The translations under genes and the position numbers were made by a program. From Liolophura sinensis (Eukaryota; Mollusca; Polyplacophora; Chitonida; Chitonidae): a stretch of 64,000 bases of DNA. The stretch covers positions 1,537,474 to 1,601,473 of the forward strand of contig NC_088298.1 in assembly GCF_032854445.1 (NCBI RefSeq), in the 5' to 3' direction. Shown one piece after another: positions 3,926 through 62,800 of this stretch. A model generated the notes under the pieces. That model saw only the letters and a program-made list of their open reading frames with translations. It was not told where the DNA came from and did not search any database. Numbering within the stretch: the stretch's first letter is position 1; each line of letters begins with the position of its first letter.

Positions 3926-5068
3926 AATACAGCACAGAGACTAACACCAGAGCAGTGACGACCGTGATCACACGTAACCGATGACATACGGCTACAGCAC
4001 AGAGACTAACACCAGAGCAGTGACGACAGTGGTCACACCTAACTGGTGACATTCGGCTACAGCACAGAGACTAACGCCAGAGTAAGTACGACAGTGGTCA
4101 CACCTAACCGGTGACAAACGGATACACCACAGAGACTAACACCAGAGTAAGTACGACAGTGGTCAGACGTAACCGGTGACATTCGGCTACAGCACAGAGA
4201 CTAACACCTGAGCAGTGACGACAGTGGTCACTCCTAACTGGTGACATTCGGGTACAGCACAGAGACTAACACCAGAGCAGTGACGACAGTGGTCACACGT
4301 AACCGGTGACATACGGCTACAGCACAGAGACTAACAACATAGCAATGAGGACAGTGGTCACTCCTAATTGGTGACATTCGGGTACAGCACAGAGGCTAAC
4401 ACCAGGGCAGTGACGACAGTGGTCACACGTAACCGGTGACATACGGTTACAGCACAGAGACTAACACCAGAGCAGTGACGACAGTGGTCACACCTAACTG
4501 GTGACATTCGGCTACAGCACAGAGACTAACGCCAGAGTAAGTACGACAGTGGTCACACCTAACCGGTGACAAACGGATACACCACAGAGACTAACACCAG
4601 AGTAAGTACGACAGTGGTCAGACGTAACCGGTGACATTCGGCTACAGCACAGAGACTAACACCAGAGCAGTGACGACAGTGGTCACACGTAACTGGTGAC
4701 ATACGGATACAGCACAGAGATTAACACCAGAGCAGTGACGACAGTGGTCACACGTAACAGGTGACATACGGATACAGCACAGAGACTAACACTAGAGCAG
4801 TGACGACAGTGGTCACACGTAACCGGTGACATACGGCTACAGCACAGAGACTAACACCAGAGCAGTGACGACAGTGGTCACACGTAACCGGTGACATACG
4901 GCTACAGCACAGAGACTAACACCAGAACAGTGACGATAGTGATCACACCTAAACGGTGACATACGGCTACAGCACAGAGACTAACACCAGAGCAATGACG
5001 ACAGTGGTCACACCTAACTGGTGACATTCGGTTACAGCACAGAGACTAACACCAGAGCAATGACGGCA
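3926..5068. repeat. 65-bp tandem array
   Basis: About 17 units of 65 bp carry CAGCACAGAGACTAACACC, GACGACAGTGGTCACAC and GGTGACAT. A distinctive pair of variant units (AACGCCAGAGTAAGTACG and the next) appears near 4071 and again near 4526, 455 bp apart (7 units), so a 7-unit block was duplicated. Short ORFs across it are incidental. Confidence 0.95.
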
Positions 5069-5116
5069 GGATTATAGACAGCAAATGGTCTTTCGTAACT
5101 CGAGAAATACGGGATT

Positions 5117-5786: not shown

Positions 5787-7362
5787 ACAGGGCTTGTACA
5801 CAGCGTCCGTTGAGGTCATGGTTTATCCGTATCTCGCCTTCCGCATTCATGGCTTGTACACAGCGTCCATTTAGATGATAGCTTATCCATATTTCCACGG
5901 ACGTATTCATGGCTTGTACACAGCGTCCATTTAGATGATGGCTTATCCGTATCTCGCCTTCCACGGACGTATTCATGGCTTGTACACAGCGTCCATTTAG
6001 ATGATGGCTTATCCGTATCTCGCCTTCCACGGACGTATTCATGGCTTGTACACAGCGTCCGTTTAGATGATGGCTTATCCGTATCTCGCCTTCCACGGAC
6101 GTATTCATGGCTTGTACACAGCATCCGTTTAGATGATGGCTTATCCGTATTTCGCCTTCCACGGTTGTATTCATGGCTTGTACACAGCGCCCGTTTAGAT
6201 GATAGCTTATCCATATTTCCACGGACGTATTCATGGCTTGTACACAGCATCCGTTTAGATGATGGCTTATCCGTATTTCGCCTTCCACGGACGTATTCAT
6301 GGCTTTTACACAGCGTCCGTTTAGATGATGGCTTATCCGTATTTCGCCTTCCACGGACGTATTCATGGCTTTTACACAGCGTCCATTTAGATGATGGCTT
6401 ATCCGTATCTCGCCTTCCACGGACGTATTCATGGCTTGTACACAGCATCCATTTAGATGATGGCTTATCCGTATCTCGCCTTCCACGGACGTATTCATGG
6501 CTTTTACACAGCGTCCGTTTAGATGATGGCTTATCCGTATTTCGCCTTCCACGCTTGTATTCATGGCTTGTACACAGCGTCCGTTTAGATGATAGCTTAT
6601 CCGTATTTCGCCTTCCACGCTTGTATTCATGGCTTGTACACAGCGTCCGTTTAGATGATGGCTTATCCATATTTCCACGGACGTATTCATGGCTTGTACA
6701 CAGCGTCCGTTTAGATGATAGCTTATCCGTATTTCGCCTTCCACGCTTGTATTCATGGCTTGTACACAGCATCCGTTCAGATGATGGCTTATCCGTATTT
6801 CGCCTTCCACGGTTGTATTCGTGGCTTGTACACAGCGCCCGGTTAGATGATAGCTTATCCATATTTCCACGGACGTATTCATGGCTTGTACACCGCGTCC
6901 GTTCAGATGATGGCTTATCCGTATTTCACCTTCCACGGCTGTATTCATGGCTTGTACACAGCGTCCGTTTAGATGATGGCTTATCCGTATTTCCACGGAC
7001 GTATTCATGGCTTGTACACAGCGTCCGTTTAGATGATAGCTTATCCGTATTTCGCCTTCCACGCTTGCATTCATGGCTTGTACACCGCGTCCGTTCAGAT
7101 GATGGCTTATCAGTATTTCGCCTTCCACGCTTGTATTCATGGCTTGTACACAGCGTCCGTTCAGATGATAGCTTATCCGTATTTCGCCTTCCACGCTTGT
7201 ATTCATGGCTTGTACACAGCATCCGTTCAGATGATGGCTTATCCGTATTTCGCCTTCCACGGACGTATTCGTGGCTTGTACACAGCGCCCGGTTAGATGA
7301 TAGCTTATCCATATTTCCACGGATGTATTCATGGCTTGTACACAGCGTCCGTTTGCCAGTGG
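5787..7362. repeat. 66/57-bp tandem array with open frames on both strands
   Basis: About 25 units carry ATTCATGGCTTGTACACAGC and a GATGATGGCTTATCCGTAT core. Full units are 66 bp; a recurrent variant is 57 bp, lacking 9 bp around TCGCCTTCC. Both lengths are multiples of three, so the minus strand stays open for 526 codons (22-residue period containing GRCVQAMNTSVEGEIRISHH) and other frames stay open for 350-410 codons. Unit differences change residues freely (H/Y, Q/K, R/C), there is no signal peptide or domain, and three frames are open at once. I read it as a minisatellite, not a gene. Confidence 0.9.
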
Positions 7363-11302: not shown

Positions 11303-11383
11303 CCACACACCTGAAACAACCGTTAGAAACATTGACTGACAGCATACGGTCGACTACCTGTGTTATCACAATCACACAGCAAA

Positions 11384-13579
11384 ATGGCAGACTTGGGACA
11401 GCTATGGGAAAAACTAAGCGGTGCGGAAAGTAAGTCGCTTCTCAAGAAGCACTGCACTCCCGAAGTTTACGAAACTTTGAAAGAGAAGACCACGAAATTT
11501 GGCGGCACGCTTGCCGAGTGTATCCGATCGGGAGCGGAAAATCCCGAGAGCGGAGTAGGCGTTTATGCAAGTGACCCAGAAGGCTACACTGTGTTCGCCG
11601 ATCTTTTAAACCCGGTCATCATGGACTACCACAAAGTGGACGAGTTGAACCATCCAGGATGTGACTATGGATCTGAGGCTGATCTCAATTTCGGCGACCT
11701 TGACCCTTCAGGGGAGCTAATCGTGTCCACAAGGGTCAGAGTTGGCAGGAGTCATGACAGTTACGGGTTTCCCCCAACCCTCAACAAGGAACAGAGAGAG
11801 GAAATGGAAAAAGTCACCCGTGAGGTATTAGAGGGACTAACTGGGGAGCTTAAAGGTACATACTATCCTCTAGATGGAATGACCGAGGAGACACAAAAAC
11901 AGCTCACCGAAGATCATTTCCTTTTCAAAGACGATGACCGATTCCTCAAAGCCGCCGGAGGGTACGACGACTGGCCCGCCGGTAGAGGCATCTTCTTCAA
12001 CGACAACAAAACTTTTCTGGTCTGGGTGAACGAAGAGGACCACATCCGAATCATCTCCATGCAGAAGGGAGGAGACTTGGCCGCTGTGTACAAGCGATTG
12101 GTGAGTGGCATTCAAGAACTGGAAAAGAAACTGCAATTTGCCCGTCTGCCCAATTTGGGTTACCTCACGTTTTGTCCCAGTAATTTAGGCACAGCCCTAC
12201 GGGCCAGCGTGCACGTGAAGATACCCAAAGTGGCGGCCATGCCGGAGTTCAAAGAGATCTGTGACAAATATCACATCCAGGCGAGAGGCATCCACGGCGA
12301 GCACACGGAGAGCGTGGGCGGTGTGTACGATATCTCTAACAAGAGACGACTGGGTCTGACAGAGATTCAAGCGATAGAGGAGATGAGACGAGGGGTCGAG
12401 GAACTGATCAGGTTAGAGAAGGGACATCCGGACACAGGGGCTGCCAAGCCTGAGTCAGACCTTCCAATACTATGGGAGAAACTGGAATCTGCTAAGGACA
12501 GCAAGTCCCTACTGAAGAAGCACTGTACTAAGAAAGTCTACGAAAAACTCAAGGATAAGAAGACGAAGTTTGGCGGAACTCTGGCCGAGTGTATTCGATC
12601 GGGGGCGGAAAATCCCGAGAGCGGAGTCGGTGTCTACGCATCCGATCCCGAGGGCTACACTGTGTTCGCCGATCTTTTGAACCCGGTCATCATGGACTAC
12701 CATAAAGTGAACAAACTTAAACACCCAGAATGTAATTTCGGTTCTGAAGCCGATCTAAGCTTCGGTGATCTTGACCCCGAAGGGGAGCTAATCGTGTCCA
12801 CAAGGGTCAGAGTTGGCAGGAGTCATGACAGTTACGGGTTTCCCCCAACCCTCAACAAGGAACAGAGAGAGGAAATGGAAAAAGTCACCCGTGAGGTATT
12901 AGAGGGACTAACTGGGGAGCTTAAAGGTACATACTATCCTCTAGATGGAATGACCGAGGAGACACAAAAACAGCTCACCGAAGATCATTTCCTTTTCAAA
13001 GACGATGACCGATTCCTCAAAGCCGCCGGAGGGTACGACGACTGGCCCGCCGGTAGAGGCATCTTCTTCAACGACAACAAAACTTTTCTGGTCTGGGTGA
13101 ACGAAGAGGACCACATCCGAATCATCTCCATGCAGAAGGGAGGAGACTTGGCCGCTGTGTACAAGCGATTGGTGAGTGGCATTCAAGAACTGGAAAAGAA
13201 ACTGCAATTTGCCCGTCTGCCCAATTTGGGTTACCTCACGTTTTGTCCCAGTAATTTAGGCACAGCCCTACGGGCCAGCGTGCACGTGAAGATACCCAAA
13301 GTGGCGGCCATGCCGGAGTTCAAAGAGATCTGTGACAAATATCACATCCAGGCGAGAGGCATCCACGGCGAGCACACGGAGAGCGTGGGCGGTGTGTACG
13401 ATATCTCTAACAAGAGACGACTGGGTCTGACAGAGATTCAAGCGATAGAGGAGATGAGACGAGGGGTCGAGGAACTGATCAGGTTAGAGAAAGGAGGAGA
13501 ACTTAAAGATGACAAGCAATCAGAAACGAAAAAGCATTCAGATAAACCTACAACTACACGATCCTGTTCCATTCTTTAA
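11384..13579 (+). CDS. two-domain arginine kinase with CaaX-like C-terminus
   Basis: The 731-residue protein is two complete arginine kinases in tandem, each about 350 residues, catalysing reversible phosphate transfer between ATP and arginine. Equivalent residues are 357 apart. Each domain has the guanidino-specificity loop SGVGVY (56-61 and 413-418), STRVRVGRS with the nucleotide-binding arginines (115-123), NEEDHIRI with the catalytic glutamate (216-223), the signature CPSNLGT with reactive Cys264 and Cys621, and the GEHTES loop (305-310). The residue preceding SGVGVY is Glu (55, 412), where single-domain enzymes such as the 21-22 kb paralogue have Asp. I start at ATG 11384 (AAAATGG context); in-frame sequence upstream has only a GTG. 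The gene has no introns. The halves share 711 identical bases. A basic, Ser/Thr/Lys-rich tail of about 25 residues ends in Cys-Ser-Ile-Leu, a possible prenylation motif. Confidence 0.97.
11710..13491 (+). repeat. 711-bp perfect intragenic duplication (two tracts)
   Basis: Bases 11710-12420 and 12781-13491 (offset 1071) are identical by eye, whereas the preceding parts of the two domains differ at many silent and some replacement sites. The sharp edges indicate recent homogenisation, by gene conversion or unequal exchange, rather than a recent whole-domain duplication. Confidence 0.92.
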
Positions 13580-21037: not shown

Positions 21038-22096
21038 TTATTTAAGTTCTCCTCCCTTCTCTAACCTGATCAGTTCTTCGACCCCTCGTCTCATCTCCTC
21101 TATCGCTTGAATCTCTGTCAAACCCAGTCGTCTCTTGTTAGAGATATCGTACACACCGCCCAAGCTCTCTGTGTGCTCGCCGTGGATGCCTCTCGCCTGG
21201 ATGCTATACTCGTCACAGATCGTTTTGAACTCCGGCATGGCCGCCACTTTGGGTATCTTCACGTGCACGCTGGCCCGTAGGGCTGTGCCCAAATTACTGG
21301 GACAAAACGTGAGGTAACCCAAATTGGGCAGACGGGCAAATTGCAGTTTCTTTTCCAGTTCTTGAATGCCACTCACAAGTCGCTTGTACACAGCGGCCAA
21401 GTCCCCTCCCTTCTGCATGGAGATGATTCTCAGATGGTCTTCTTCGTTCACCCAGACCAGAAAGGTTTTGTTGTCGTTGAAGAATATACCCCTACCCACG
21501 GGCCAGTCGTTGTACCCACCAGCAGCCTTAAGGAATCTGTCACTGTCGTTAAAGAGGAAATGGTCATCCATCAACTTTTTCTGAGTTTCGGGGGTCATAC
21601 CATCTAGGGGATAGTAAGTACCTTTAAGCTCCCCAGTCAACTTCTCCAAGACATCACGAGTATTTCTCTCCATGTTAACACGCTGCTCCTTGTTGAGGGT
21701 TGGGGGAAACCCGTAACTGTCATGACTCCTGCCAACTCTGACCCTAGTGGACACAATTAGCTCACCGGAAGGGTCAAGATCACCGAAGTTTAACTGTTCG
21801 ACATTTCCAAAATCGGTGGGAGGGTGGTAGAGGGCTTCTACTTTGTGATAGTCCTTAATGATCGGATCAAACAGCTCGCTAAACTCTTGGTAGGCTGCAG
21901 GATCAGATGCGTAGATTCCCACTCCACTGTCCAGGTTTTCCACACCAGATCGAATGCAGTCCGTTAACGTACCGCCCAACTTCGTCTTTTTGTCTTTCAG
22001 TTTTTCATAAATCTCTGGCGTCAGGTATTTGCTCATCAGAGACTTGCTTTCCTTTGTTGCCCTCAGTTTTTTCCATAGCTGTGGTAGATCCGACAT
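21038..22096 (-). CDS. single-domain arginine kinase
   Basis: The 352-residue enzyme is a standard-length monomeric arginine kinase (ATP:arginine phosphotransferase), normally a cytosolic energy-buffering enzyme. Landmarks are LDSGVGIY with Asp56 of the guanidino-specificity region, [24 protein letters not shown] with the reactive cysteine, and the GEHTES loop. It ends LEKGGELK and lacks the tail of the two-domain paralogue, whose second domain has the same GGELK before its extension. The CDS has no introns. The 3' portion is almost identical at the nucleotide level to the 11-13 kb gene (one difference in about 150 bases around 21228-21375, three in about 118 near the C-terminus), while the N-terminal half differs much more. 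That patchiness suggests conversion between the two genes, which face each other 7.5 kb apart. Confidence 0.97.
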   Translation of the reverse strand: MSDLPQLWKKLRATKESKSLMSKYLTPEIYEKLKDKKTKLGGTLTDCIRSGVENLDSGVGIYASDPAAYQEFSELFDPIIKDYHKVEALYHPPTDFGNVEQLNFGDLDPSGELIVSTRVRVGRSHDSYGFPPTLNKEQRVNMERNTRDVLEKLTGELKGTYYPLDGMTPETQKKLMDDHFLFNDSDRFLKAAGGYNDWPVGRGIFFNDNKTFLVWVNEEDHLRIISMQKGGDLAAVYKRLVSGIQELEKKLQFARLPNLGYLTFCPSNLGTALRASVHVKIPKVAAMPEFKTICDEYSIQARGIHGEHTESLGGVYDISNKRRLGLTEIQAIEEMRRGVEELIRLEKGGELK

Positions 22097-22233
22097 CTTG
22101 CTTATCTGTTGTAGATGTCGACTTCGACGTGGACTGTAAAGAGCAGATAGTTTTACCCGTGTCGTGTCGACGAGGTGTACGTCTCTTCTGAATTACGTAT
22201 CGCGTCTTTTCTATCTGTTCCAATTCTCTGTGA

Positions 22234-31220: not shown

Positions 31221-31225
31221 TGTGT

Positions 31226-31995
31226 AAACATGGACAGTGCCATAGTCAACGTGAAGACTGCCCTTTCAACATGGACAGTGCCATAGTCAACGTGTAGACC
31301 GCGCTGTCAACATGGACAGTGCAATAGTCAACGTGTAGACCGCCCTGTCAACATGGACAGTGCCATAGTCAACGTGTAGACTGCCCTGTCAACATGGACA
31401 GTGCCATAGTCAACGTACAGACTGCATTGTCAACATGGACAGTGCAACAGTCAACGTGTAGACTGCCCTTTCAACATGGACAGTGCCATAGTCAACGTGT
31501 AGACCGCGCTGTCAACATGGACAGTGCAATAGTCAACGTGTAGACCGCCCTGTCAACATGGACAGTGCAATAGTCAACGTGTAGACTGCCCTGTCAACAT
31601 GGACAGTGCCATAGTCAACGTGTAGACTGCCCTGTCAACATGGACAGTGCCATAGTCAACGTACAGACTGCATTGTCAACATGGACAGTGCAACAGTCAA
31701 CGTGTAGACTGCCCTGTCAACATGGACAGTGCCATAGTCAACGTGTAGACTGCCCTGTCAACATGGACAGTGCCATAGTCAACGTACAGACTGCATTGTC
31801 AACATGGACAGTGCCACAGTCAACGTGCAGACTGCATTGTCAACATGAAGTGTGCCACTGTCAACGTGCAGACTGTATTGTCAACATGACGTGTGCCATT
31901 GTCAACGTGCAGACTGCATTGTCAACATGAAGTGTGCCACTGTCAACGTGCATACTGCACTGTCAACATGAAGTGTGCCATTGTCAAAATGTATG
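31226..31995. repeat. 41-bp tandem array
   Basis: About 18 units of GTCAACATGGACAGTGCCAT plus AGTCAACGTGTAGACTGCCCT; the last four (after 31840) switch to an ATGAAGTGTGCCA variant. It lies 1.3 kb past the supervillin stop, in its 3' UTR or flank. Confidence 0.92.
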
Positions 31996-36300: not shown

Positions 36301-39300
36301 AAATCAAGTCACATTGCACATCAGTCTATTGGCGCAGTCTTACATGAAGTCTCTTCTCCTAAACTGTACATGACCAACTCTGGGACACTGCCCAGTCATG
36401 AGGAAAATTGTACACTATTAACACGAAATCTGAATTGTTACGACATGAGTATCTCAATCTATCATCGACATTGCCCATTTATTTCAAAGGCGTATTTTCA
36501 GGCCAGTTTGTTGTGGATAATAAATTTTTTGGAATACCATGTTCATCAAATAATTGATCCCATATATATATATATACATATATCTAATATTCAACTGGTT
36601 GTTATTTGCATCTTGTTTAAGTAATACACTGTAGCCTTTCATACATGTGCCTTATGTTCAGTTGAGCAATCTTTGCGCTCAAATTCATCCGACATTGCAC
36701 AAAAAATTGGTGCAGTCTTATATAAAGTCTATGCTTTTTTATACATGCAGTGCTGTATTTCAGCACAATCATGCTTTATACTCTCTTCCAGTAATAAAGT
36801 GCGGCATATAAACAAATACACAAGTATGACTCAAGTTCTGTGTCAGCCCAAGTTCGTGCAGTCCTACATGAAGACTATACTCACCCTGGCAGTACTGTAG
36901 CGTGGTTTGCATGGCACAGCGGCGGTCGGTGTTAAATCTTGCCTGTGCTGACCCAGTGTGGACATTCTCGCTGTCTTCACCACCCTCTGGCCACCAGCCC
37001 TGCCACAAGTACACCTCCTCATGGTTGTCCAATAAAAACAAACCTACAAATCACAAGACAAAATATTCTTGTTTTGTAATCTGATAAAGAATGAAAAGTT
37101 TACTTAAATGATTGTTATTAGACACTATAATACAAAATTTTCAACGACAAATACATTTTATACTAACATATATTTTGTATTTGTTAATACTACATCTAGT
37201 CCACTGCTTGATGAAAATAATTTTGTCAGTATGGTTGGCACAATCATCCTGCCTTCCAAATAAAACAAATCAACTTTCTAAAATCAGCGAAACTCTATGA
37301 CACACAAAATTTTAGCTCATACAACACAAACACAAACCATGAAATAAATACTAATAAAATATTCTAAGCATTTCTGAGAGTTTTAATAACATAACGAGTA
37401 TAAGGGCTTCTGAAACGTTCACCAGCACAAGGTGACAAAAAGGCCACATGTTCAAATCCATCTCACTCTGTTTCAGCTGAATCTTTTACGCCAATATTTG
37501 TGGGGTACCGGGTGAACTCACCTGGCTGTGAGACCTTGTAGAGATCGGACTGTAGGAATGGCATGGGGGTGACCAGGTCGTGGCAGCGGGTGGGGTTCAG
37601 GATCTCCACGGCCTCAAACACCCCAGCCACGCTGTTCATGTAGAACAGCCGAGGGGTGTGGCGGATTGGTTTTCCTGTACATGTACAAACCACAGTTAGT
37701 CTATTAGTTAAAATGTCACTAAATGATAGGATAAGCACACATACAAAGGGTAAATCATAATGGGCAAGGTTTTAGCAATCCTTTGTGATGTCTGTCTTAC
37801 AGCTGTATAACACTGTTACGGTGACTGTTTTGTTACAGGATATGGGAATATACACATCCTTCTTGTGACTGTTGCTGTCCAATGAAAAGACTATTTTGTC
37901 TGATGCCAGCTAAACTCATATATAATTTACCATACGTAAAAATGTTCACATATTATATAATGGTTCACCGACATTTGGCAAGCTAATGACAAACTTTTTG
38001 TCTGACATGCACATATTATGGAACAAAAGAGGTTTGTAGCTCAGTCTCAGCAGCCAGCGTTATTGCTGGCTGTGTAAACTATCTTTAATTGTTCTGTCGT
38101 TAAAGAGGCTATGTCAGAGATTTTGACAAAACACATTTTGTTCTTATTTTGGAATAATAGCCCAGTAGATGTACAAGCCGAGCTTTGTTGTACTTCTTCT
38201 AGATCTTTGTTTAAAAAGGCTACATCAATGATTTTACCCCCCAAAAAATCAAAATTTGCTATAAATAGAATCAAATTTTCTTTATTAACCAAGACTAGCT
38301 CCAAACTGTGAGACTCCAGTACATCTCTGACTTGTATCTGTACTATTATGTTTAGACTTCAAAAAATAGTTTGACAAGTCTGTAATGTGACTGACTTCCT
38401 AAATTCTAGGAACTTTATTACAGATTCTGAACAGTCACACGGCACAGATGAGGTTGGTATTTTGTGTAAGGTAAATATTTGTGCTATTCTAAAATAATAG
38501 CAACAATTTGACTAAATTTGCACTGATCAATTTTGTCCCGAAAGTCTCCAGTAAAGGCCCTTTATTTAATCTGTGCAGGTACACGTACCCTAATTCTTCC
38601 ACCTTTTCAACGACCAACATTCTGAAACATTCTGTATGAAGATTATAGTATATAACATTTTACCTGAGCTGCTTAATATCAACAGCAATAAATAAATGAA
38701 GAATCTGTTGGTGTACCTTTGAGAAGGGAGTGATACAGCTTCCTGTCCCTAGTCCTCATGGCGCTCCAGAACTCAGACTTCTCCGAGCCTTCCTCCAGTT
38801 CCGTGATCGTCACGCTGGCCTTGTTATGAAGCCCTACCTCCAGTGGGCATCTGCCAATACACAAGACAGCATTCAGAATTCATACATGCCATATTCATAA
38901 CTTTTATTTATTCATCTGAATGGTGTTTCACAACGTACCCAAGAATATTTCACTTATACGATGGCGGCCAGAAAAAAGGTCAAGGTCGCTGAAAATCAAT
39001 AGGTTTCTCCCTCATGCCAAGGTGTAAGTGTGGTGAAAGTGTGGTGTAAGTGTGGTGTAAGTGTTGTGTAAATTTGGTGAACTTGGGCTAAACTGTTCTA
39101 GAGGCAGAGCATTCACAAGGATATGGACAGATGGACAGCGCCCCTTACACAATACCCCCTTGGTCAATATTGGCCCAGGAGTAAAAAAATGATGATATAT
39201 TTGATTAGTATGCAAATGAATTTGAGTATAAATGTGAAAAGCCAAAACGCACATGGTAAAGTAATCATTTCCGCAAAAGTTTTTGAATTTCCTATGAATA

Positions 39301-42300
39301 GGTTCAGTGATATAATGGACACAGATTGGGGCAGACAGAGGAAAAGACAGGCGCAAACATGCCAATACCCCTTAAAAGATAGTACTAGACCAAATGTATA
39401 TATGCAGTGATAAACTATCTCACAGAAAGTTTAAAAAGCATAACGTTTCATTGTTGTAATGCTGCACATATGCTGGCATATCTCACTTCAAAGTAAGCCA
39501 AATCATCCACAAAAGAGACAATCAAAAGCACCGCCATGTTATCACATTTAATTAATCAGGCGCGAGTTACTTCAATAGTCTGAGGACACAGCTGTTTCTA
39601 CTTACATCACCCTAACCCTCTTTCACCTTGTTTGTTTGTTTTAACAAGTCACATTCAATGGCCTCGTAAGAATTCTTGATTTAAATCTCTGTGGATGTTC
39701 AGATCTGTTTCCCCCCTTCTTCCTAAACAACTTGAAGTTATATTGTTTGATGTGTTTTCTTTTAACTCAAAGAGATTGAGGAGTAAAAAACTCCAGTCAG
39801 GACTTACTTCTCCTTAAGCTTGTTGGCTGCTCCTATGGCCAGCTTCCTTGTGTACGATGGAGACTTGGCACCATGCCAGATGTACAGGAACCCTGTCTTA
39901 ACATTGAGCAATAAAAAGGACGTCCTACTGCGAAGATTCTCAGCCCCTAGAGGCACCTCCATCAGGCACATTTCGTTTTCGAGTTCGTTTCGCACCAGGT
40001 ACAATCGGTAAGCACCCTGAGTGTTCGTTTCGGCCTCTTCTCGTTTGCCAATGTGAACGATGGTTTGTCCCTCAAAGAGATTCAGAAAACATGGAGGTTC
40101 TTTTCCCTGAGAAACCCGCACCTGGAAAAATGCAAGAAAAAAAATTATGACATTTTACTGCCTTCAGGAATGGAATAACCTCAACTTAAGTTTAAATGAA
40201 GAGTTCAGGTGTAAAAGCAGATATACGCCATTCATGCCGAGACCTGAACTCTTCAATTATTGAACCTAAGTTTAAATGCTGAATTAAAGCACTGAAGTAT
40301 AGTTTACATGCTAACCATACATTTAGGCTGAATGGCTTACTTCATGCGTAGAGTTTAAATACTGAATTAAAGCACTGAAGTATAGTTCACATGCTAACCA
40401 TACATTTAGGCTGAATGGCTTACTTCATGCGTAGAGTTTAAATACTGAATTAAAGCACTGAAGTATAGTTTACATGCTAACCATACATTTAGGCTGAATG
40501 GCTTACTTCATGCGTAGAGTTTAAATACGGAAGTAGATCTCAACAGAGTTTATTTTCACTTCTCAATCATGTTTTTGTCCACAATCTTCTGTTTTTTTAA
40601 AATATAATCTTGTAAAAACGTGACAGATTTATCTCGCTGACCCACTGAACAGCTTAGTATAATAAATAAACAAAGTAACCCTGAAGAAATTCATTTTGAC
40701 GGTTTCAATATTTCGACTTTAATTAAGTCATCCTCAGGAGTATTGTGACAGTTTTTGTGACGATGAATTCACCATGACATTCCATAATCCAAATACTACA
40801 AGCCACAGCCTTTTGTACTCATTATAAACTGTCCAGATCAGCATGGCTCTTTCTGGCCAAACATACAACAACAGTTGCATATATGTATACAAAATAACAG
40901 AAAAACAGAAGACAATCATCGCTGTGTATTTACTAGGATGCCTTTCACTTTCAGATGAAAAACACTTTGTAGTTCACCCTTCATACATAAAGGTTTCTTT
41001 TCCTCATACCTGTGGGCCTCTTTCCTCATCCAACTCCACGGTCATCAATGCAGACGCACCTTTCTCGTTGACAGTAGAATTATGTCCCTGCCAGAAGAAG
41101 TAAGCACACCTTTCTCGTCCTGTCAGCGAGTGACGAGCAGCCTGACCCTTTAAAGTTTTCATACCTGTTGGGCAGCGCATAGGCATATCAGTGTACAGTT
41201 ACCATGGCAACAAGGCACAAAGGAAAATACACACATGGTAATGCGTAAATTATTGCCCTCATTACATATGCTTAACAAATATCTGCTGAGCGGTATCATT
41301 TATTTTCCTGTATTTTTGACCCTATTCTTCAAAATTTTTCAGCCATACAATGGGTGTCAGTTTTATGGATGGAAGAAACCAGAGTGCCTGTGGAAAACAA
41401 CCAACCTTTGACAAGTTACTGAAGAGCTTCTCCCCACTACTTATTGTCACCAAGGCCTCACGGCCTTGAGAACAAAGGAATCAACAAACCTCCTGTTGCA
41501 CAGTATAGCCAGAATGACATACAAGGCACGTACGTGTCCCCATCACTGAACTGCCTGTAGCTGTGTTTGGGCAGTTGGAGCGATTGTACTCCACGTCGGA
41601 CAATACAGACAGAATGCCATACAGGTCTGTGATCATGTACTTCCATGACACCCTGTACGTGTCCCCATCAATGAACTGCCTGTAGCTGTGTTTGGGCAGT
41701 TGGAGCGATTGTACTCCACGTCGGACAATACAGACAATCAGTGACAGGCAGTGTTTGGGCAGTTGGAGCAATTGTACTCCACGTTGGACAATACAGACAG
41801 AATGACATACAGGTCTGTGATCATGTACTTCCATGACACCCTGTACGTGTCCCCATCAATGAACTGCCTGTAGCTGTGTTTGGGCAGTTGGAGCGATTGT
41901 ACTCCACGTCGGACAATAAAGACAGAATGACATACCTGAGGCTGTGATCATGTACTGCCAGCGCACCACGTACGTGTCTCCATCATGGAACTGACCGTAG
42001 CTGTGTTTGGGAAGTTTGGAGTGGTCGTACTCCAGGACGTGCCAGACAATGACATCCAGGGTGAGGATGTCAAACTCTCGCCGCAGTCCGTCCATCTCCT
42101 CCACCCTGCCAAGCAAACAAACACGAATGTTTGCAAAGGCGTTTATTCAAGAATATTCTGAAGGCATTACTCAGACTGACTGATCAAATTAGACTTTCTG
42201 TGAGGCCCTGACACTGGCCAATCCAACCAATGTAGTTTTGTCTCCAGACTCAAATCAAAACTGTGCTTAAATTGTGCTGGAAGTCACTCTTTCACATGCA

Positions 42301-45300
42301 ATGAGGTTGAGTAATTAGGGTACTGTCATTTTAATTATTTATTGTATTTAAGAATTTACCAAACATAACCAGTCCTAATTAAATTTCTCTATTTCATTAT
42401 AGTTTAACATCATACTCAAGGAATTTTTTAGTTATGTGATGGCAATCAGTTTTTATGGGTGAAGAAACCAAAGTGCCAAGGGTAAACCACTGTCCAGTGG
42501 CAAGTAACTAATGAACTTTTCCAAGCAGGACGTACATAAACGCACAATCCACAAAATCCCTGAGCGCTGCCTGTTTTGAGCGTGATTGGTGTTCAATAGC
42601 TAAGCTAATACTACAGAAATGAATAAAACAGCCTTCTCAGAGGACTACTTGCTCTCCTGTAAATACGATGTATATATATATATACATACAAGTGAAAAAG
42701 CGTTATGCAAGAAGTACTTGATTGGTGGTGGGGGGGGGGGGGGGTGGGGTTGTAACATTGTAATTCCTGAACTGATTACCACATAAAATAAGACAAATTT
42801 AAGTAGCACAAAACTTCACAAGAATCCTTGAAGTACATTCACAGCAGTTGTAGTCTTGTCTGTAGATTCTAAAGTACATTAAGGAAGGTAACTTTATCAC
42901 TAAAAATGTAAATGGCACAAAAATTACTCACAGACAAGTCTGGATTGTGGAGAAGATGTGTGGAAATTTTCATAGCAATCAGTCCAGTACTTTAAGAGAA
43001 GATGCGCAGACAAAATCATGTCTGCAGACAGTCATAGACACAGACAAGGTGTTTTCAACATCCACCCCTCTCCCCTGCTTATACATACGGGAACAAATAT
43101 TGAGGAAAGCTATTTTACATGTACATACCACTTATCTCCTCGTCCAACATGGCTGCCTTCAAACAACATGGTGACCGGCGCTTTGTTCACAGGTATGAGG
43201 AGTTTGGCATCATAAGGTTTGAGATCACACTCCACCTGCTAAGGTCACAAAACACACATCTCATGTTTACCTCATCTTTTTTCGGTATTCAAGATTTTTA
43301 TGACTTATTTTTATATTTGTATTAAAATAAACTATTTTGTTAATGAACAAACAGCCGTACAAATACCTTCAGGGCAAAGCTTTCTGGCGTTTTACTGCGC
43401 ATTGTAAATCGCGATGATTCCGGCCAATCAAAAAACTTCTCCTTGAACAGCGTTGTTTCCATGTTCTGGTTGACTTTACCAAATACAGCCCAAGATGGCC
43501 GCTGAGAGGATTTCTTTGGCGGTGCACCTTCTTCTTCATCTGAAATACAGATAGGAATTTGTTTTGTTTCATAAGAAAAACAAAGAAATTTGTTTCTTTC
43601 ATTTTTGATTGATTTATTTATTTGTTTGATTTGTTTCCCCTCATAACGATGGCGACCAGCATTATGGTGGGAGGAAACCCACAACCATCCACAGGCTGTT
43701 GGCAGGCTTTCCCCTCGTACGGCCCTTTCATTTTTAAGGTATATTTTATATTTCTTAATATCCCATCTATTTTATGGTTATTTTCTATCTATGGTAAATT
43801 TCAGCAACGATGTCACTGATGGAACATGGGTCAAATTAGCACTCTCCATTCCGACTCTTCCACCTGCAGAATTGTTACAATAGCTATCAAGGTTGATATC
43901 ATGACAGTTGATAACTCACCCCTGAGGCCTGAGATAGGGTTGACGGGACACATGCTATAATCATAGCCCTTCTCCCAGAGCTGGGTGGCCAGCTTCATCC
44001 CCATTCGTCTCTGCTCCATGGACACCTGGTTACCCTGCCAGACGTACAACTCCGAGCCAAAGTCAAAAACCAAGACCTGAACAAGTAAATCCAGCTCATT
44101 ATGAATGCCTTAAACACCAATATGGGTACGTGTGAATCAGGTGAATCAAAGTGGTTTTTCTCCTAAACTCCAATACCTGAACAAGTACATCCAGCTCATT
44201 ATGAATGCCTTAAACACCAATATGGGTACGTGTGAATCAGGTGAATCAAAGTGGTTTTTCTCCTAAACTCCAATACCTGAACAAGTAAATCCAGCTCATT
44301 ATGAATGCCTTAAACACCAATATGGGTACATGAATGCCGTAAACACCAATCAAGTGTTAAAACCCCAATACCTGAACAGGTAAAATCAAGTCTTCAACAC
44401 TAACACCTGTAGAGGTGAGTCTGGGTCATTAATAAAGACTTCAAGATTAACAAATACACAAGACAGTCCTATCTGATAACTCTCAAGTAAAGAATAAAAA
44501 AAAGAACCAAATTTATTGCCCAAGTGAAGCACAGCTGTAGGTACAATAGTAACATGACAGTAGTAAAGTTTACAGGTGGGCAAACAACGTGATATCACGG
44601 GCGCATATAAAAATGGATGGGAGATGACGACACATACCTCCTCGGGTTTTAACATCTCCACCTTGGGGATCTTGCCCCAGTATTCCTCGTATGGGACTAA
44701 CGTGTTATTGCAGACTTTATAAACCATGTTGGTTTCCACGATGAAGGCTTCGTAAGCCTCGTCTTCATCAGGGGGGCCACACTCTGGAAATAAAGCATAT
44801 GTATGTATGAGTGGGGTTTAATATCACAATTTTTCAGGCATATGATGATGAGGAGTCATTGGATGCACGTACATATATTGTGTCTTCTTGTGGCAGGGCG
44901 AGTCCATGACTGCCAAACTGCAGCTACCACCTAAGTTTCATGCTGAAGACACCAGACATGACACCCCACCCTGTCACATTATACGGAAAACGGGTCAACC
45001 AGTGATGTCTCCTTGCTATAACTTCTCAGTGCTTAGCGCCAAGCAAGACAGCAGCCAACACCACATTTAAAGTCTGTAAAGTATGACCCGACCCGGGTTT
45101 GATCCCGAGATCTCCCTACTCTGAGGCAGACGCTCTAACCATTAGGCCACCGAAACGGTTGAAATAAAGAGTTTCGATATTTAAATATTTCCTCTGAGAT
45201 AATACTATTACAACCCCTTATTCTGTATTATTCAAACACAACTAGTAAAGGTCATCGTAGGGGAGTGGGGGCCTCGGTGGCTCAGTCGGTTAGCGCGCTA

Positions 45301-48300
45301 GTGCAGCGTCATGACCCAGGAGCCTCTCACCAATGCGGTCGCTGTGAGTTCAAGTCCAGCTCATGCTGGCTTCCTCTCATGGGAAGGTCTGCCAGCATCC
45401 TGCGGATGGTCGTGGGTTTGCCACGGGCGGTTTCCAACCACCATAATGCTGGCCGCCGTCATATAAGTGAAATGTTCTTGAGTACGGCGTAAAACACCAA
45501 TCAAATAAATAAATAAATAGTACGGGAGTGGAAACTGTACACTGATTTAAGTATCGGTACATGAAGGCAGGGGTTGAAATTAACTAGAAAATCTTGGTGT
45601 TTTAGGACTCAAGTTCATCTAAACGTTGGCCATCTAGTGAAAAGCTCCATTTCATTACATTATTGTATTACTGTATGAGTATAAATGTGGGTACAGTCAG
45701 TATAAATCATAGGCCAGTCAAATACGCTAGTGCTTCTCTTCAGCAAGACCAAAATTCCACCAGCCTCTGAATGGTGGATCACCGTTAATTTCCAGCCCAA
45801 ACAAGGAATAAAATGTTAAAGCAGACCAACATATTTCACTTGTCACGCAAATGATCTAGGAACCTCTCCCCATGCATTTACTGTGAGCTCAAGTCCAACT
45901 CACACTGGTTTCCTCTCCACCATGGGGAGGTCTGCCAGCAACCTGCAGATGGCACAGAGTTTACCCCAGGCACTACTTGGTTTCCTCCCACTATAATACT
46001 TACCACCATCGTATAAGTGAAATAGACTTGAGTATGGCTTAAAACACCAATCAAATAAATAAACACATAGACAATTCTTTCATTGGTCACCGACATTCTT
46101 CCATCCAAACACCCAATCAGAACAACCATATTTTATAATCATGTTCAAATTCAACCAATCAGAAGAATGAATGCTTATGACTTATCCAATCATAAGACGG
46201 GTACCACAGAAAGTCTGCCAATGACAACAGCTGTACCTTGGCACTCTTCATCGCCTTCCAACGCGGACCAGAAGTTTTTATTGGCTACGTGTCTCATCTT
46301 CTCGTCTTCCACGATAATAGGTGGCGATGATTCACGATAACCCAAATCCTTTTTCTGAGAGACGAATTGGGCAATGTCCGCTGCCTGAGAATGAGAAAAA
46401 AGACAAATTGGGCAATGTCCGCTGCCTGAGAATGAGAAAGAAGACAAATTGGGCAATGTCCGCTGCCTGAGATTGAGAAAAAAGACAAATTGGGCAATGT
46501 CCGCTGCCTGAGAATGAGAAAAAAGACAAATTGGGCAATGTCCGCTGCCTGAGAATGAGAAAGAAGACGAATTGGGCAATGTCCGCTGCCTGAGAATGAG
46601 AAAGAAGACAAATTGGGCAATGTCCGCTGCCTGAGAATGAGAAAGAAGACAAATTGGGCAATGTCCGCTGCCTGAGAATGAGAAAGAAGACGAATTGGGC
46701 AATGTCCGCTGCCTGAGAATGAGAAAGAAGACAAATTGGGCAATGTCCGCTGCCTGAGAATGAGAAAGAAGACAAATTGGGCAATGTCCGCTGCCTGAGA
46801 TTGAGAAAAAAGACAAATTGGGCAATGTCCGCTGCCTGAGAATGAGAAAGAAGACAAATTGGGCAATGTCCGCTGCCTGAGATTGAGAAAAAAGACAAAT
46901 TGGGCAATGTCCGCTGCCTGAGAATGAGAAAAAAGACAAATTGGGCAATGTCCGCTGCCTGAGAATGAGAAAAAAGACAAATTGGGCAATGTCCGCTGCC
47001 TGAGAATGAGAAAGAAGACAAATTGGGCAATGTCCGCTGCCTGAGAATGAGAAAGAAGACAAATTGGGCAATGTCCACTGCCTGAGAATGAGAAAGAAGA
47101 CAAATTGGGCAATGTCCGCTGCCTGAGAATGAGAAAGAAGACAAATTGGGCAATGTCCGCTGCCTGAGAATGAGAAAGAAGACAAATTGGGCAATGTCCG
47201 CTGCCTGAGAATGAGAAAGAAGACAAATTGGGCAATGTCCGCTGCCTGAGATTGAGAAATATAACCACCAAATTATGGGAATTTAGATCCTACGATAAAA
47301 GAATACATAGAGCAAGCTGGTTTTCCAAGCTGTGTTGATGGCGCACAAAGTGAAAGGAGTAAAAATAAAGCTGAAAATCCACCTTCTTATTTTTGTCACA
47401 TCCCAATATTTGTAGGATTTTCTTAATGTTTGAGGCTTTATCATGTAAATATTTTGTCAAAAGAAAAAAATTGCTGGTGCAAGTCCACATTTGCCACCGA
47501 GTAGATAATTTCTAAGTTTTATTTATGAAACATTTTCAAAACTTTATGTCACAAAATTTGTACTCACTCTGGCCTTTTCAATGACATTACTAAACTTCCC
47601 ATTCCAATTCACGACCCTGTCTGGTCTGATCAGAATGTATGAGTCGCCCCTGTTTACAGACGAGACGTGTGGTTCAACCAATCGTGTCTGGACATGGCGC
47701 CGACCTAAACCAACAACCATATTACACCGGAGTTAGGTAATGAAATGCAAGTATGGAATGAATGACATCTCACGCCCACACAACCCGATCAACAACACAT
47801 ACACAACATTCTCACTGCAGCTGACATATCCTGGATTCACTTTATCTATAAGACTGGTTTTCAATCATATAACAGTACTCTAATTTTTTTGGTCTGCATG
47901 TTTATGATAGTGGTTTCCCGAATGTGCATTAAAATGTCCATACAAAGGGGGCATAACTCCTGCATTGGTCACTCCAGCAAACAGGGGAGACAATCTGGTG
48001 TGCATGGACAAAGTTCTCCTCTTCAAAATCCTATAACCTGGTTGTTGTAATCTAAATTGCACTAAATATGCTGTAACTCAATGAGATACATCAGATTATT
48101 CATTCTAGTTTCTTTGCCATTAATTTTCACATTTCATATTAATTTTCATTTTTAGTCCGATTTCTTCATTAAAATTACCTTTTCCTCCCATGATAATGCT
48201 GGCTATATAGAAATATTCTTCAGCAGCACATAAAACCCCAATCATATAGGTAAATCTAACAAATAAAATTACCTTTAATATGCAACAACATGAGATCCTT

Positions 48301-57300: not shown

Positions 57301-59820
57301 TTACACCATGTTTATGCGGGAGCCAGGAACATCATGATCTACCTGACGCTTCCATAAGTGCCCTATTACCAATGGGTGCTGCTGTATACTTTCTAATAAT
57401 ACCACGTCACAGAAGTTTAGTGCAGTTGTCCTTAGTTCATTTGTCCTTCCCCTCAATACCTATACTCAAGCATGAGTGTACTACTCGTGTAATGCTTCAG
57501 CATGAGTACATTACTCATGTAATGCTTCCGCATGAGTGTATTACTCATGTAATGCTCAAGCATGAGTACATTACTCATGTAATGCTTCAGCATGAGTATA
57601 TTACTCATGTAATGCTCAAGCATGACTATATTACTCATGTAATGCTTCAGCATGAGTATATTACTCGTGTAATGCTTCAGCATGAGTATATTACTCGTGT
57701 AATGCTTCAGCATGAGTACATTACTCATGTAATGGTTCAGCATGAGTATATTACTCGTGTAATGCTTCAGCATGAGTGTATTACTCATGTAATGCTTCAG
57801 CATGAGTGTATTACTCGTGTAATGCTTCAGCTTGAGTATATTACTCGTGTAATGCTCAAGCATGAGTACATTACTCATGTAATGGTTCAGCATGAGTGTA
57901 TTACTCATGTAATGCTCAAGCATGACTATATTACTCATGTAATGCTTCAGCATGAGTATATTACTCGTGTAATGCTTCAGCATGAGTATATTACTCGTGT
58001 AATGCTTCAGCATGAGTGTACTACTCGTGTAATGCTTCAGCATGAGTGTATTACTCGTGTAATACTCCAGCATGACTATATTACTCATGTAATGCTTCAG
58101 CATGAGTATATTACTCATGTAATGCTTCAGCTTGAGTATATTACTCGTGTAATGCTCAAGCATGAGTGTATTACTCATGTAATGCTCAAGCATGAGTATA
58201 TTACTCATGTAATGCTTCAGCATGAGTACATTACTCATGTAATGCTTCAGCATGAGTACATTACTCATGTAATGAGTATATTACTCATGTAATGCTTCAG
58301 CATGAGTGTATTACTTGTGTAATGCTTCAGCATGAGTAATGCTTCAGCATGAGTGTATTACTCATGTAATGCTTCAGCATGAGTGTATTACTCGTGTAAT
58401 GCTTCAGCATGAGTGTATTACTCGTGTAACGCTTCAGCATGAGTGTATTACTCGTGTAATGCTTCAGCATGAGTGTATTACTCATGTAATGCTTCAGCAT
58501 GAGTGTATTACTCGTGTAATGCTCCAGCATGACTATATTACTCATGTAATGCTTCAGCATGAGTATATTACTCATGTAATGCTTCAGCTTGAGTATATTA
58601 CTCGTGTAATGCTCAAGCATGAGTACATTACTCATGTAATGCTCAAGCATGAGTACATTACTCATGTAATGCTCAAGCATGAGTACATTACTCATGTAAT
58701 GCTTCAGCTTGAGTATATTACTCATGTAATGCTCAAGCATGAGTACATTACTCATGTAATGCTCAAGCATGAGTACATTACTCATGTAATGCTTCAGCAT
58801 GAGTATATTACTCATGTAATGCTTCAGCATGAGTGTATTACTCATGTAATGCTTCAGCTTGGGCCCCATGGCTACCATTGCACATGTCGTAAGGAAAATG
58901 GCAACTCATAAAACTTTTATCATCAGAAGACACCTCATTCTACATTATTGCATGTTCTTCATGTACGTCTCCATGAAAACAGTGCTGTGAACAATACATA
59001 GGGTAAACCATCAGCTTTCCACTGAAGCAGTTGGCTGAAGTACAAGATTAATGTTTAACCACAATTACTCACTTTTAACATGTGGAGAGATATATGTAGG
59101 ACAAACTATGAAACCTTGAGTTTCTCCTGAAACAAAATGAATTGCACAACCTATTTCATATTTCTAGTTACGCCCACGGATGGGTTCGTCTCAAAATGAT
59201 ATGTAATGCAGTTCAAACCATATGATATATATCATTATCTTACTTTCCGATAAGTTTAATAAAACAACTAATTTATGCTGGTGAAATGGATCAAGGCAGA
59301 AATCATTATGCTGTATATAAAAGCTCAGCGTTTGATTAGTCAACAAAACTTTGACACTTTGAAGCCTAGAAAAAAAGGTTACAACAGGTAGAGTTTTTAC
59401 GGTAAAATACCCACACCAGGAATTATATGGTCGAGGGAGGGGGGGGGGGGGGAGATCAATTTTCATCAATTTCTCCATTATCATTTAAATTATCACTACC
59501 ATAAAACCACCATATAACCACATAAAATTACTTCTGCTGTGGAGCAGGCAACATTACATGGGAACTGCCAGCATTGATATAATAAGGTTTAATAGGCCTC
59601 CATCCAGTCTGATTTATGACTGTCTGGCTTTTAAACCTCCGGTATTTCTAACCAACTATTCATCTCTCCCTTATTTAACATGCTTTAATACTAACATGGT
59701 CACACAAGTGTCCCCCGAATATTTTTTACGAAGTCATTGTTGTACACATCTGTAAATGCTGTATTTCACTTACATGTAAAGTTTATATACTGCTAGAAAC
59801 TCATACTTGAATTGGACTTC

Positions 59821-59852
<32 letters not shown>

Positions 59853-62800
59853 AGTTGAAGCATCACAACGTAAATGTAAAGCGCTTCACAAGCTCTGGAC
59901 CCACGTGCCAGGATCATTATCTTTTACATGTCTGTGGTGATGCCTCGACTTCATTATCATTATGTCAAGTTGAGTTTTTTCAATGCCAAATTTTGCTTCA
60001 TTTTAACTGATTCATTCACTTTAAAGGTCCATTTAAGAGGTTTTTTTTGGAAGGTTTCATTCATTTCTCATCAGAAAAACCTAGGTGTTGGCAACAAATG
60101 TATCATTTTATGGCCGTTACCCCAATTCCTCAAGTTTTTCGGATATTGAAAGAGCAACTTTCAATGCAATTTATGCAAATTCATAACAAAACTACATTGG
60201 TTTCAGTAATAATTGATTTACTATGTACATAAAGGCACATATCTGTCTGTTTCTATGTCATGCATGAAGAAGTCAGGGGAAACCTATCCGTGGCAACATA
60301 TTAGATCCCTTACAACACCCATCCCTAGCGCATAGTATCCTTTGGGATGGACAAATCCGTTCCCAAACAACAGCGTTGTGATGATGGAGTGGCTGGCTGC
60401 TGTACAATATTGTGAGTCTTCAGTTAATCCACTTTAATCACCAAATGTTGTACCATGTTATCACCATTGTACGGTTTGTCACTGGATACTACAGTGTACT
60501 ACAGTGTACTAGAGTGTACTACAATGTACATGTACTTATGAGGCCCACATTGCTGGTGCATGACAGTCAATAAAACACTGATCAATACATTATGGAACAA
60601 ACTGTTACAAGTATCATCACACATAAATAATAAATAAGTACCGGGATAATGTAATTCTATAAAGGTACCAGCAGGGGCACACAATTAGTATATTCCATGT
60701 TATTAGTTTCCTTGACATATCTTGTCTAAGCAACTATTCACTTTCTATTTGGTTGTGATCATGCAGTTTTATTCCTGGAGAACACATAAGAGCCAGGAAT
60801 AAACCACTGACCTTTGACAAATAACTGATAAACCTTTCCACATGTGATACAAAGATGTTCACACGCAAAGCTCTTGTGCAATACATACGTATGCAAGGGA
60901 TGAAAATCTTAGGCATTCATGAGATGAACTTTCAAATCAGAGAAACCTACCTTTCTGCTTCTGCTTTCCTCGGTTCTTTAAAGCGCCGCCGAGCCACAGC
61001 TTCATTTTTGATCTTGGACATTTTCCTTGTTTCCGCTGTCTCAGACTTTTCCACAGTGACAGAAGCAGCTGCTGTCTCCGTACCATTGGTCTGGTTACTC
61101 CGAGTCTCCACATGATGTGACTCTGTCTCCTCTCGCGTTACCACTGATATAGACTCCCTTGTCACGTCACTGTCTTCACTGGTCACTTCACACGACACTG
61201 ACCGGACCTCGCTGGACGCTGTCTTCTTCAGAATTCCTCGGATTTCGTGCGATTCCTTGAAGTCTTGTGAACGGGACTTCTTGAGAACACCTTTATCAGG
61301 TTCGACCTTGTTCTCTTCAAGGGAATCGCGCTTCAAAATGCTCCTCGGAAGATCGCCCTCCGATTTCCCTTTAGAGTCACGCCGCAATGCGCTCCTGTGA
61401 CCTTTTTGGGAATCATTCGAGTCTGTGTGTTTGAGGATCCCACGACATGGTTCATCGGGAGACTTCACAGATGAAGTTATCTCCCCTTCCGAGTCGCCAT
61501 GTTTTAGAATTCCCCGAGGTTCTGCACTGTCTTTTCCACCGTCTTTCAGTATCCCGCGGATTTCAGAATCGGACGACTTCCTCCCATCATGCTTCAGGAT
61601 ACTTTTAACTTCCTGTGGGTCCTTGCTTTCTGAGGTTTTCAAAATTCCTACAATGACACAAAAATATTATGACTTACAAAACTACACAACTCATACATAT
61701 ACACCTGTTTATAATACTATAGGAGCGTAACATATGAAGGATGGAATTCTCTAATACGGTGAATCAAATAGACTAATAAAAATCCCAGATTAAAATTTGA
61801 TTTAAAAATTGTGCTGACGTCAGCACAAATTAGCTGTGGCCATTTAGATCTGTTTCCATCCCTGCTGTGCTGCGCACGCACGCTAACCACTTAGTCATGG
61901 AGGCCCCTAATTGTTAAGTGAATGGCCGGCCTACATGAAAAGACATAATCATCCTGAATTTTAAAAATTTCACAAACCGATTAACTTATAGGATTGCTAC
62001 TGGAAGGTAAACGCTGGTATATATTATACGATTTATACATTTATGTGAACATGTAAGTCGGACTCCTGCTTTGGTCTGTGTTTGTACAAATATATTGTCA
62101 TACATTTATACACTGGCACACGAATACTCGACCCAGTTTTTACAATTCTGTACATCTATAAGCTTGACTAGAGTCAGTGACACTCAGTTCTATACAACAT
62201 CTACCTGCCATTTATAGATGACCCACATACCTTACCTGTACCAGGTAAGTGTGCAGGTGAATGAGGGAGGAATGTAACCCTCTCTCTCACCTGTAGGTGA
62301 GATGGGATGGGATAGGCAATTTACATCACAATATTAACATCCTGTCTCCTTAATAAACTACTAAGGTGAAGACATGTATACTTAATCAAAGTCTTTTCTT
62401 TTCTTTCACCTTTATGACATATGGTTAACCACAAACCATACTGCCAGGCAATTATATTTTAGCATGAATTACTTTTCTTCTGTCCTGCAAAATAATATAC
62501 ACTCTTTACCAATAAAGTAAACAAATGGCATCCGAGTTTCCTCCAGCTTCACTACAATTTTATTACATGGTGCATTCTTGGTTTTCGTGTCAGGCCAAAA
62601 ACTGTCTAAGTCTTCAACAGGTGGAGTTGCAATTTTTGCCCTGAACTGAAGAAGACAATCCTTACTATGCGGGAGGTTATAATGAACCTAAATGCAAATG
62701 CATTCAAATTATCTTCTTGTTATCAAAAAGCCATTATTTAATTATTATAGTTCTACATACAGACAGAACTGGATTTACTCTGGAAATCTGAATGAACCTG

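Follow-up and report, generated by a model that had tools for sequence, protein, structure and literature searches.

The window, i.e. the whole stretch of 64,000 nucleotides from the chiton Liolophura sinensis (contig NC_088298.1) analyzed here, to which all positions refer, contains two arginine kinase frames and a supervillin gene on the minus strand. An uninterrupted frame of 747 codons (11336–13579) encodes a two-domain arginine kinase, for which the nearest PDB relatives are 4wo8, a taurocyamine kinase, and 4rf6, a long arginine kinase, and which, taken with the repeats of the window, is suggestive of a mollusc. The two halves of this gene are identical at 942 of 1020 nt, 711 of which form one uninterrupted stretch, and their sequence suggests that they arose by a recent duplication or conversion. 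A single-domain arginine kinase frame (21038–22192) is located near this gene on the opposite strand. Neither tRNAs nor Rfam matches at the gathering threshold were found in the window. The minisatellite content of the whole window as determined by TRF is unusually high. Long minisatellites of 59, 65 and 66 bp are located at 1–1381, 3928–5069 and 5791–7354, respectively, and past the 3′ end of the supervillin gene lies a further one (31223–31987, 18.7 copies) that also has a 41-bp period and is unrelated to the array described below. About 46 copies of a largely palindromic 30-bp unit (ATGAGTATATTACTCAT) extend over 1.4 kb (57469–58858) in the 5′ portion of the supervillin gene region.

The supervillin gene had been named in the original prediction, whose exon numbering we retain; our own gene model is incomplete in its 5′ part. 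Six consecutive exons around the array join to 310 codons without interruption of the frame, and a second group of six exons, further along the gene, to 346 codons. Both joined peptides match the Pfam Gelsolin family (3.2e-13 and 5.7e-14), and the nearest PDB relatives of the first are villin and gelsolin. These gelsolin-like repeats are followed by a headpiece of the supervillin type: the only PDB match obtained with the headpiece exon (33978–33823) as query is supervillin 2k6m (5.8e-10), no Pfam Gelsolin repeat is present in the first headpiece exon, and a stop codon closes a further exon. Hence, the gelsolin-like repeats, the villin and gelsolin relatives and the headpiece match together justify the name given to the gene. 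Its N-terminal exon (60947–61666) encodes repeated motifs of the RGILK/SILKH type.

Exon 10 (47568–47704, minus strand) ends in phase 0 with the residues VIEKAR and is followed by the donor gtgagt. Exon 11 (46237–46384, minus strand) comprises 148 nt, and the exon downstream of it begins at 44783 on the same strand. The border between exons 10 and 11 follows residue 102 of the first joined peptide and thus falls inside a Pfam Gelsolin match (residues 66–130), at a position that we take to be the long helix of the gelsolin fold. The alignment to gelsolin 1d0n has no gap at this point, nor has the first villin stretch, and a gap of four residues is present in the second villin stretch.

The 3′ end of intron 10 is occupied by a 41-bp minisatellite (46360–47259, minus strand) for which TRF reports 22.0 copies, 97% matches, 0% indels and a score of 1695. 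Anchoring of the units on the acceptor reveals that each consists of 16 nt of intron and 25 nt that are identical or nearly identical to the beginning of exon 11 (46384–46360), with the last unit providing the authentic exon start. This agrees with the unit content originally proposed, namely pyrimidine tract, CAG and exon 11 start; the proposed extent (46366–47262) and number of about 21 copies describe a real array, the borders and count of which we correct to the values given here. The 22 acceptors run from 47245 down to 46384, and the distance from one to the next amounts to exactly 41 nt in all 21 steps. Only six positions vary across the 22 units, in irregular order, and two of the unit positions (−18 and −17) deviate solely in unit 1, which represents the boundary copy. 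Units 2–21 share a mean identity of 97.6% with a minimum of 92.7%. Such regularity is far beyond chance. The CAG is intact at all 22 acceptors, which are indeed nearly identical and strong as had been predicted. We rejected the intact AGs as a sign of function because units 2–21 are too alike on average for this observation to be informative.

We then asked how the copies compare with the remaining splice sites of the gene, using an acceptor weight matrix built from the 15 other acceptors, a small base of sites. Units 2–22 score between 9.93 and 11.43, with the last unit (11.43, exon 11 starting at 46384) tying for the best value, and unit 1 is the weakest of the array (5.77, first exon-like base at 47245, minus strand). 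When the 15 other acceptors are scored by leaving each one out in turn, they range from 0.01 to 13.56; 14 of them stay below 9.93 and six below unit 1. Relative to the other AGs of the strand, every score class found among units 2–22 ranks above 99%, and unit 1 ranks above 95.6%. Since 21 of the 22 sites score much alike, the last acceptor is singled out by its position and exon context alone. The consensus unit contains a single GT, the donor score of which (−7.19) is very poor compared to those of 13 real donors (2.8 to 10.0), and the units are therefore unlikely to serve as small exons.

Because a unit holds just 16 nt of intron, a branch point at normal distance from the acceptors of units 2–22 must be situated within the repeat; the original branch point, located before the array, lies at such a distance from unit 1 only. 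The best branch-point candidate of the form yTnAy is CTCAT, which belongs to the pyrimidine tract of the preceding unit and lies 49 nt upstream of the following exon-like start. A yTnAy motif at this distance is present for 17 of the 22 acceptors including the last and is lacking for units 1, 2, 11, 13 and 21. Unit 1 instead is preceded, at 51 nt, by TTTAT, which lies in single-copy sequence. Two AGs, located 6 and 10 nt downstream of the presumed branch adenosine, separate CTCAT from the next acceptor. The spliceosome can pass over AGs that are less than 12–15 nt away from a branch point (PMC1431707), and the predicted arrangement could thus work, as both AGs fall inside this zone. The motif is a weak guide here, however, since 7 of the 15 other acceptors of the gene do not possess a yTnAy within the 15–60 nt scanned.

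A further consequence of the 41-nt period concerns the reading frame. Joining exon 10 to the acceptors of units 1, 4, 7, 10, 13, 16, 19 and 22 (8 of 22) keeps the frame open to the end of exon 11, and the remaining 14 run into a stop within this exon, after 50 or 88 nt. It had been anticipated that acceptors three, six or nine units upstream preserve the frame; the rule of multiples of three is borne out, and the in-frame set is wider than stated, since it reaches as far as unit 1, which is located 21 units (861 nt) upstream of the true acceptor and would add 287 codons without a stop. Three units correspond to 123 nt and thus to the expected 41 additional residues, which would be placed within the Pfam Gelsolin match. 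As likewise predicted, the protein free of insertions results from the last acceptor only, the other in-frame acceptors all bringing insertions with them, and the array is open in all three frames (ORFs 46190–47272, 46294–47289 and 46332–47282). We considered these three open frames as a signal of selection and rejected this idea, since 3655 of 20000 shuffled units (18%) and 2093 of 20000 random 41-mers from the same strand are equally open; 12 of the 123 possible single substitutions of the unit create a stop. Neither did the order of unit types across the array reveal a periodicity of three units (P 0.51, 0.99 and 0.50 at lags of 3, 6 and 9 units, respectively). A zinc finger reading of the translated repeat was also dismissed because all 11 Pfam matches are below the curated cut-offs.

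The 41-bp array is not unique in the gene, since two further junctions are tandemly repeated. A BLAST comparison of 16 exons including 150-nt flanks against the window identified tandem copies at three exons. The second repeated acceptor is that of the next-but-one exon (exon start 44076), which is covered by 2.6 copies of a 100-bp unit (44070–44329, minus strand) found by both TRF and BLAST. Its decoy acceptors, before 44276 and 44176, have a nearly unchanged intron part and both lead to a stop at codon 25. The third case, detected by the same two programs, affects a donor: a 188-bp unit present in 1.9 copies (41563–41924, in the region 41527–42034, minus strand) derives from the exon ending at 41936, whose 3′ part and donor are copied downstream. 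Here the decoy donors have decayed to scores of 2.71, 0.27, −1.01 and 2.71 compared to 9.94 for the true donor. Among these three repeated junctions the 41-bp array has the largest number of copies and shows the least decay. To place these overlaps in context, we compared the arrays between 33700 and 61700 having a period of at least 20 and a score of at least 250 (six arrays, the overlapping rows of 57469–58858 being joined by hand into one) with the 30 exon borders of our incomplete gene model, leaving aside six short, low-scoring arrays at 39021, 43604, 55038, 57417, 59821 and 60487. Two of the six arrays cover an exon border (2.2 expected at random, P 0.73) and three are within 30 nt of one (2.4 expected, P 0.46). 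In this small test of six arrays, a preference for exon borders was hence not seen, the overlap being at chance level. Arrays account for 3.6 kb of these 28 kb, which also contain many exons, so that some borders are bound to lie within arrays.

Tandem repeats across splice junctions have been described before. In amphioxus, minisatellite-like tandem duplications of intron/exon borders in which the splice signals are copied, termed mirages, are known from Adh3, the globin genes BflGb6 and BflGb9, TnC and PGBD5, the last of which was added by a report that cites the TnC case (PMC3087553, PMC3902484). These two papers state that both acceptors and donors are affected, that many but not all copies carry splice signals and that the units measure 10–72 bp in Adh3 and 150–160 bp in BflGb6, two haplotypes of which possess six and three repeat units (PMC3087553, PMC3902484). 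RT-PCR and Adh3 data suggest that regular splicing is undisturbed, and aberrant transcripts are called possible (PMC3087553). The supervillin array resembles the mirages described there in that its tandem unit spans an authentic intron/exon border, the last unit being this very border, and in that its copies carry the splice signals, as judged from the 22 CAGs and the acceptor scores. It differs from those accounts in comprising 22 units, each measuring exactly 41 bp, at a single acceptor of a supervillin gene, and in its occurrence in a mollusc; moreover, transcripts were examined for the amphioxus mirages and genomic sequence for the present array.

A second comparison is offered by intron 18 of human ABCA7, which contains a VNTR with a 25-bp unit beginning with the GT of the exon 18 donor and present in about 12–427 copies (PMC5954066). 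Skipping of exon 19 increases with VNTR length, and retention of one unit amounts to about 2% regardless of length (PMC5954066). Both arrays consist of a short unit that includes a splice site belonging to the neighboring exon, in our case the acceptor. The ABCA7 unit, as described there, is a donor without exon sequence, whereas the supervillin unit is an acceptor with 25 nt of exon, and length variation and splicing effects were measured for ABCA7, whereas a single sequence represents the chiton array. In addition, intron gain from mirages has been proposed for the amphioxus globins (PMC3087553). Such intron gain and the supervillin array have in common that splice signals are present in tandem copies, which can provide the starting material, but the poor donor of the supervillin unit makes it difficult for its copies to turn into separate exons. 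A junction-spanning minisatellite is thus a known kind of element, of which the supervillin array is a very regular example. We found no report of such an array in supervillin or in any mollusc in the literature searched, which covered a minority of subscription journals.

Taking these results together, we consider it probable that the array is a nearly neutral junctional minisatellite of the mirage type, of which mostly the last acceptor is used, with low-level use of decoys being possible. According to this reading, the 41-bp segment, which combines the terminal 16 nt of intron 10 with the initial 25 nt of exon 11, has multiplied as tandem copies within the 3′ end of the intron, presumably by slippage or unequal exchange, in a stretch of the genome that is rich in minisatellites. 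In classic minigene experiments, the choice among tandem acceptors reportedly depended on proximity and on the neighboring exon sequence. In the array, each decoy is followed by 25 nt of exon sequence only. The last acceptor is probably preferred because it alone has a donor at normal exon length together with the remainder of the exon, and exon 10 would accordingly be joined mostly to the last unit by exon definition; the conservation of the protein likewise points to the use of this acceptor. For units 2–22, the CTCAT of the preceding unit may serve as branch point, with the intervening AGs being bypassed. Wrong choices might occur at a low level. The transcripts from the 14 acceptors that run into a stop in exon 11 would then probably be removed by nonsense-mediated decay, and the seven in-frame decoys would insert between 41 and 287 residues between EKAR and AADIAQ, inside the gelsolin-like repeat. 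The array is hence most likely neutral or slightly costly rather than a regulator.

With splicing reported as undisturbed at the amphioxus mirages and the ABCA7 VNTR acting in a length-dependent manner, there is precedent for silence as well as for an effect. The array might be a copy-number-dependent regulator of splicing, as the original prediction had suggested, with the number of units altering the amount or form of supervillin through frame-shifted transcripts, insertions of 41 residues, or slowed splicing and exon skipping. The presence of 22 strong acceptors, the branch-point motif found one unit upstream in 17 of them and the growth of ABCA7 exon 19 skipping with the length of a donor-containing VNTR (PMC5954066) speak for this explanation, and since that VNTR alters splicing with its length, a copy-number effect is conceivable here too. 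We nevertheless regard a regulatory role as unlikely, since amphioxus arrays of the same kind were reported without splicing disturbance (PMC3087553, PMC3902484), retention of the ABCA7 VNTR unit did not vary with length (PMC5954066) and the supervillin sequence carries no sign of selection: open frames are common by chance, a three-unit periodicity is not seen and the overlap with exon borders is at chance level. A more elaborate version, in which the array acts as a self-phased ladder, the pyrimidine tract of each unit containing the branch point of the next acceptor, appears rather improbable to us. Several of the 22 rungs would be sampled in this case, and the number of units, both in total and modulo three, would set the balance between supervillin that is normal, lengthened by multiples of 41 residues or removed by decay, with an output that differs by allele length.

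Another explanation concerns the assembly, in which the array could have been wrongly expanded or collapsed. Arrays are hard to assemble, and the BflGb6 mirage was aberrantly assembled in the amphioxus draft genome (PMC3087553). Six variable positions in irregular order across the 22 units and a length of 900 bp, which fits within one long read, argue against an erroneous unit number, an explanation that we consider very improbable; the presence of the array as such is not in doubt, and doubt is limited to its exact length. That unit 1 is the main acceptor, so that exon 11 would comprise 1009 nt and the array be translated as seven 41-residue repeats, has in its favor, and against use of the last acceptor, the shortest intron (322 nt versus 1183 nt for 46385–47567), the retained upstream flank with its yTnAy at 51 nt and an in-frame, stop-free path, but is hardly credible given that unit 1 is the weakest of the 22 acceptors, that an in-frame unit number arises with a chance of one in three, that the insert would interrupt the gelsolin 1d0n alignment at a point free of gaps (although the second villin stretch has a four-residue gap at this place) and that three of the seven repeats yield no credible Pfam domain, all matches being below the curated cut-offs.

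The array represents an unusually clean natural series of nearly identical acceptors, with one gene, one intron, exact steps of 41 nt and 22 rungs. If the last acceptor alone is used, the array measures how far exon context outweighs both the length of the intron and the intrinsic strength of the sites. The number of units would be a natural dial for splicing if several acceptors are used. The finding further suggests that mirages, which have been described in lancelets, may exist elsewhere among animals.
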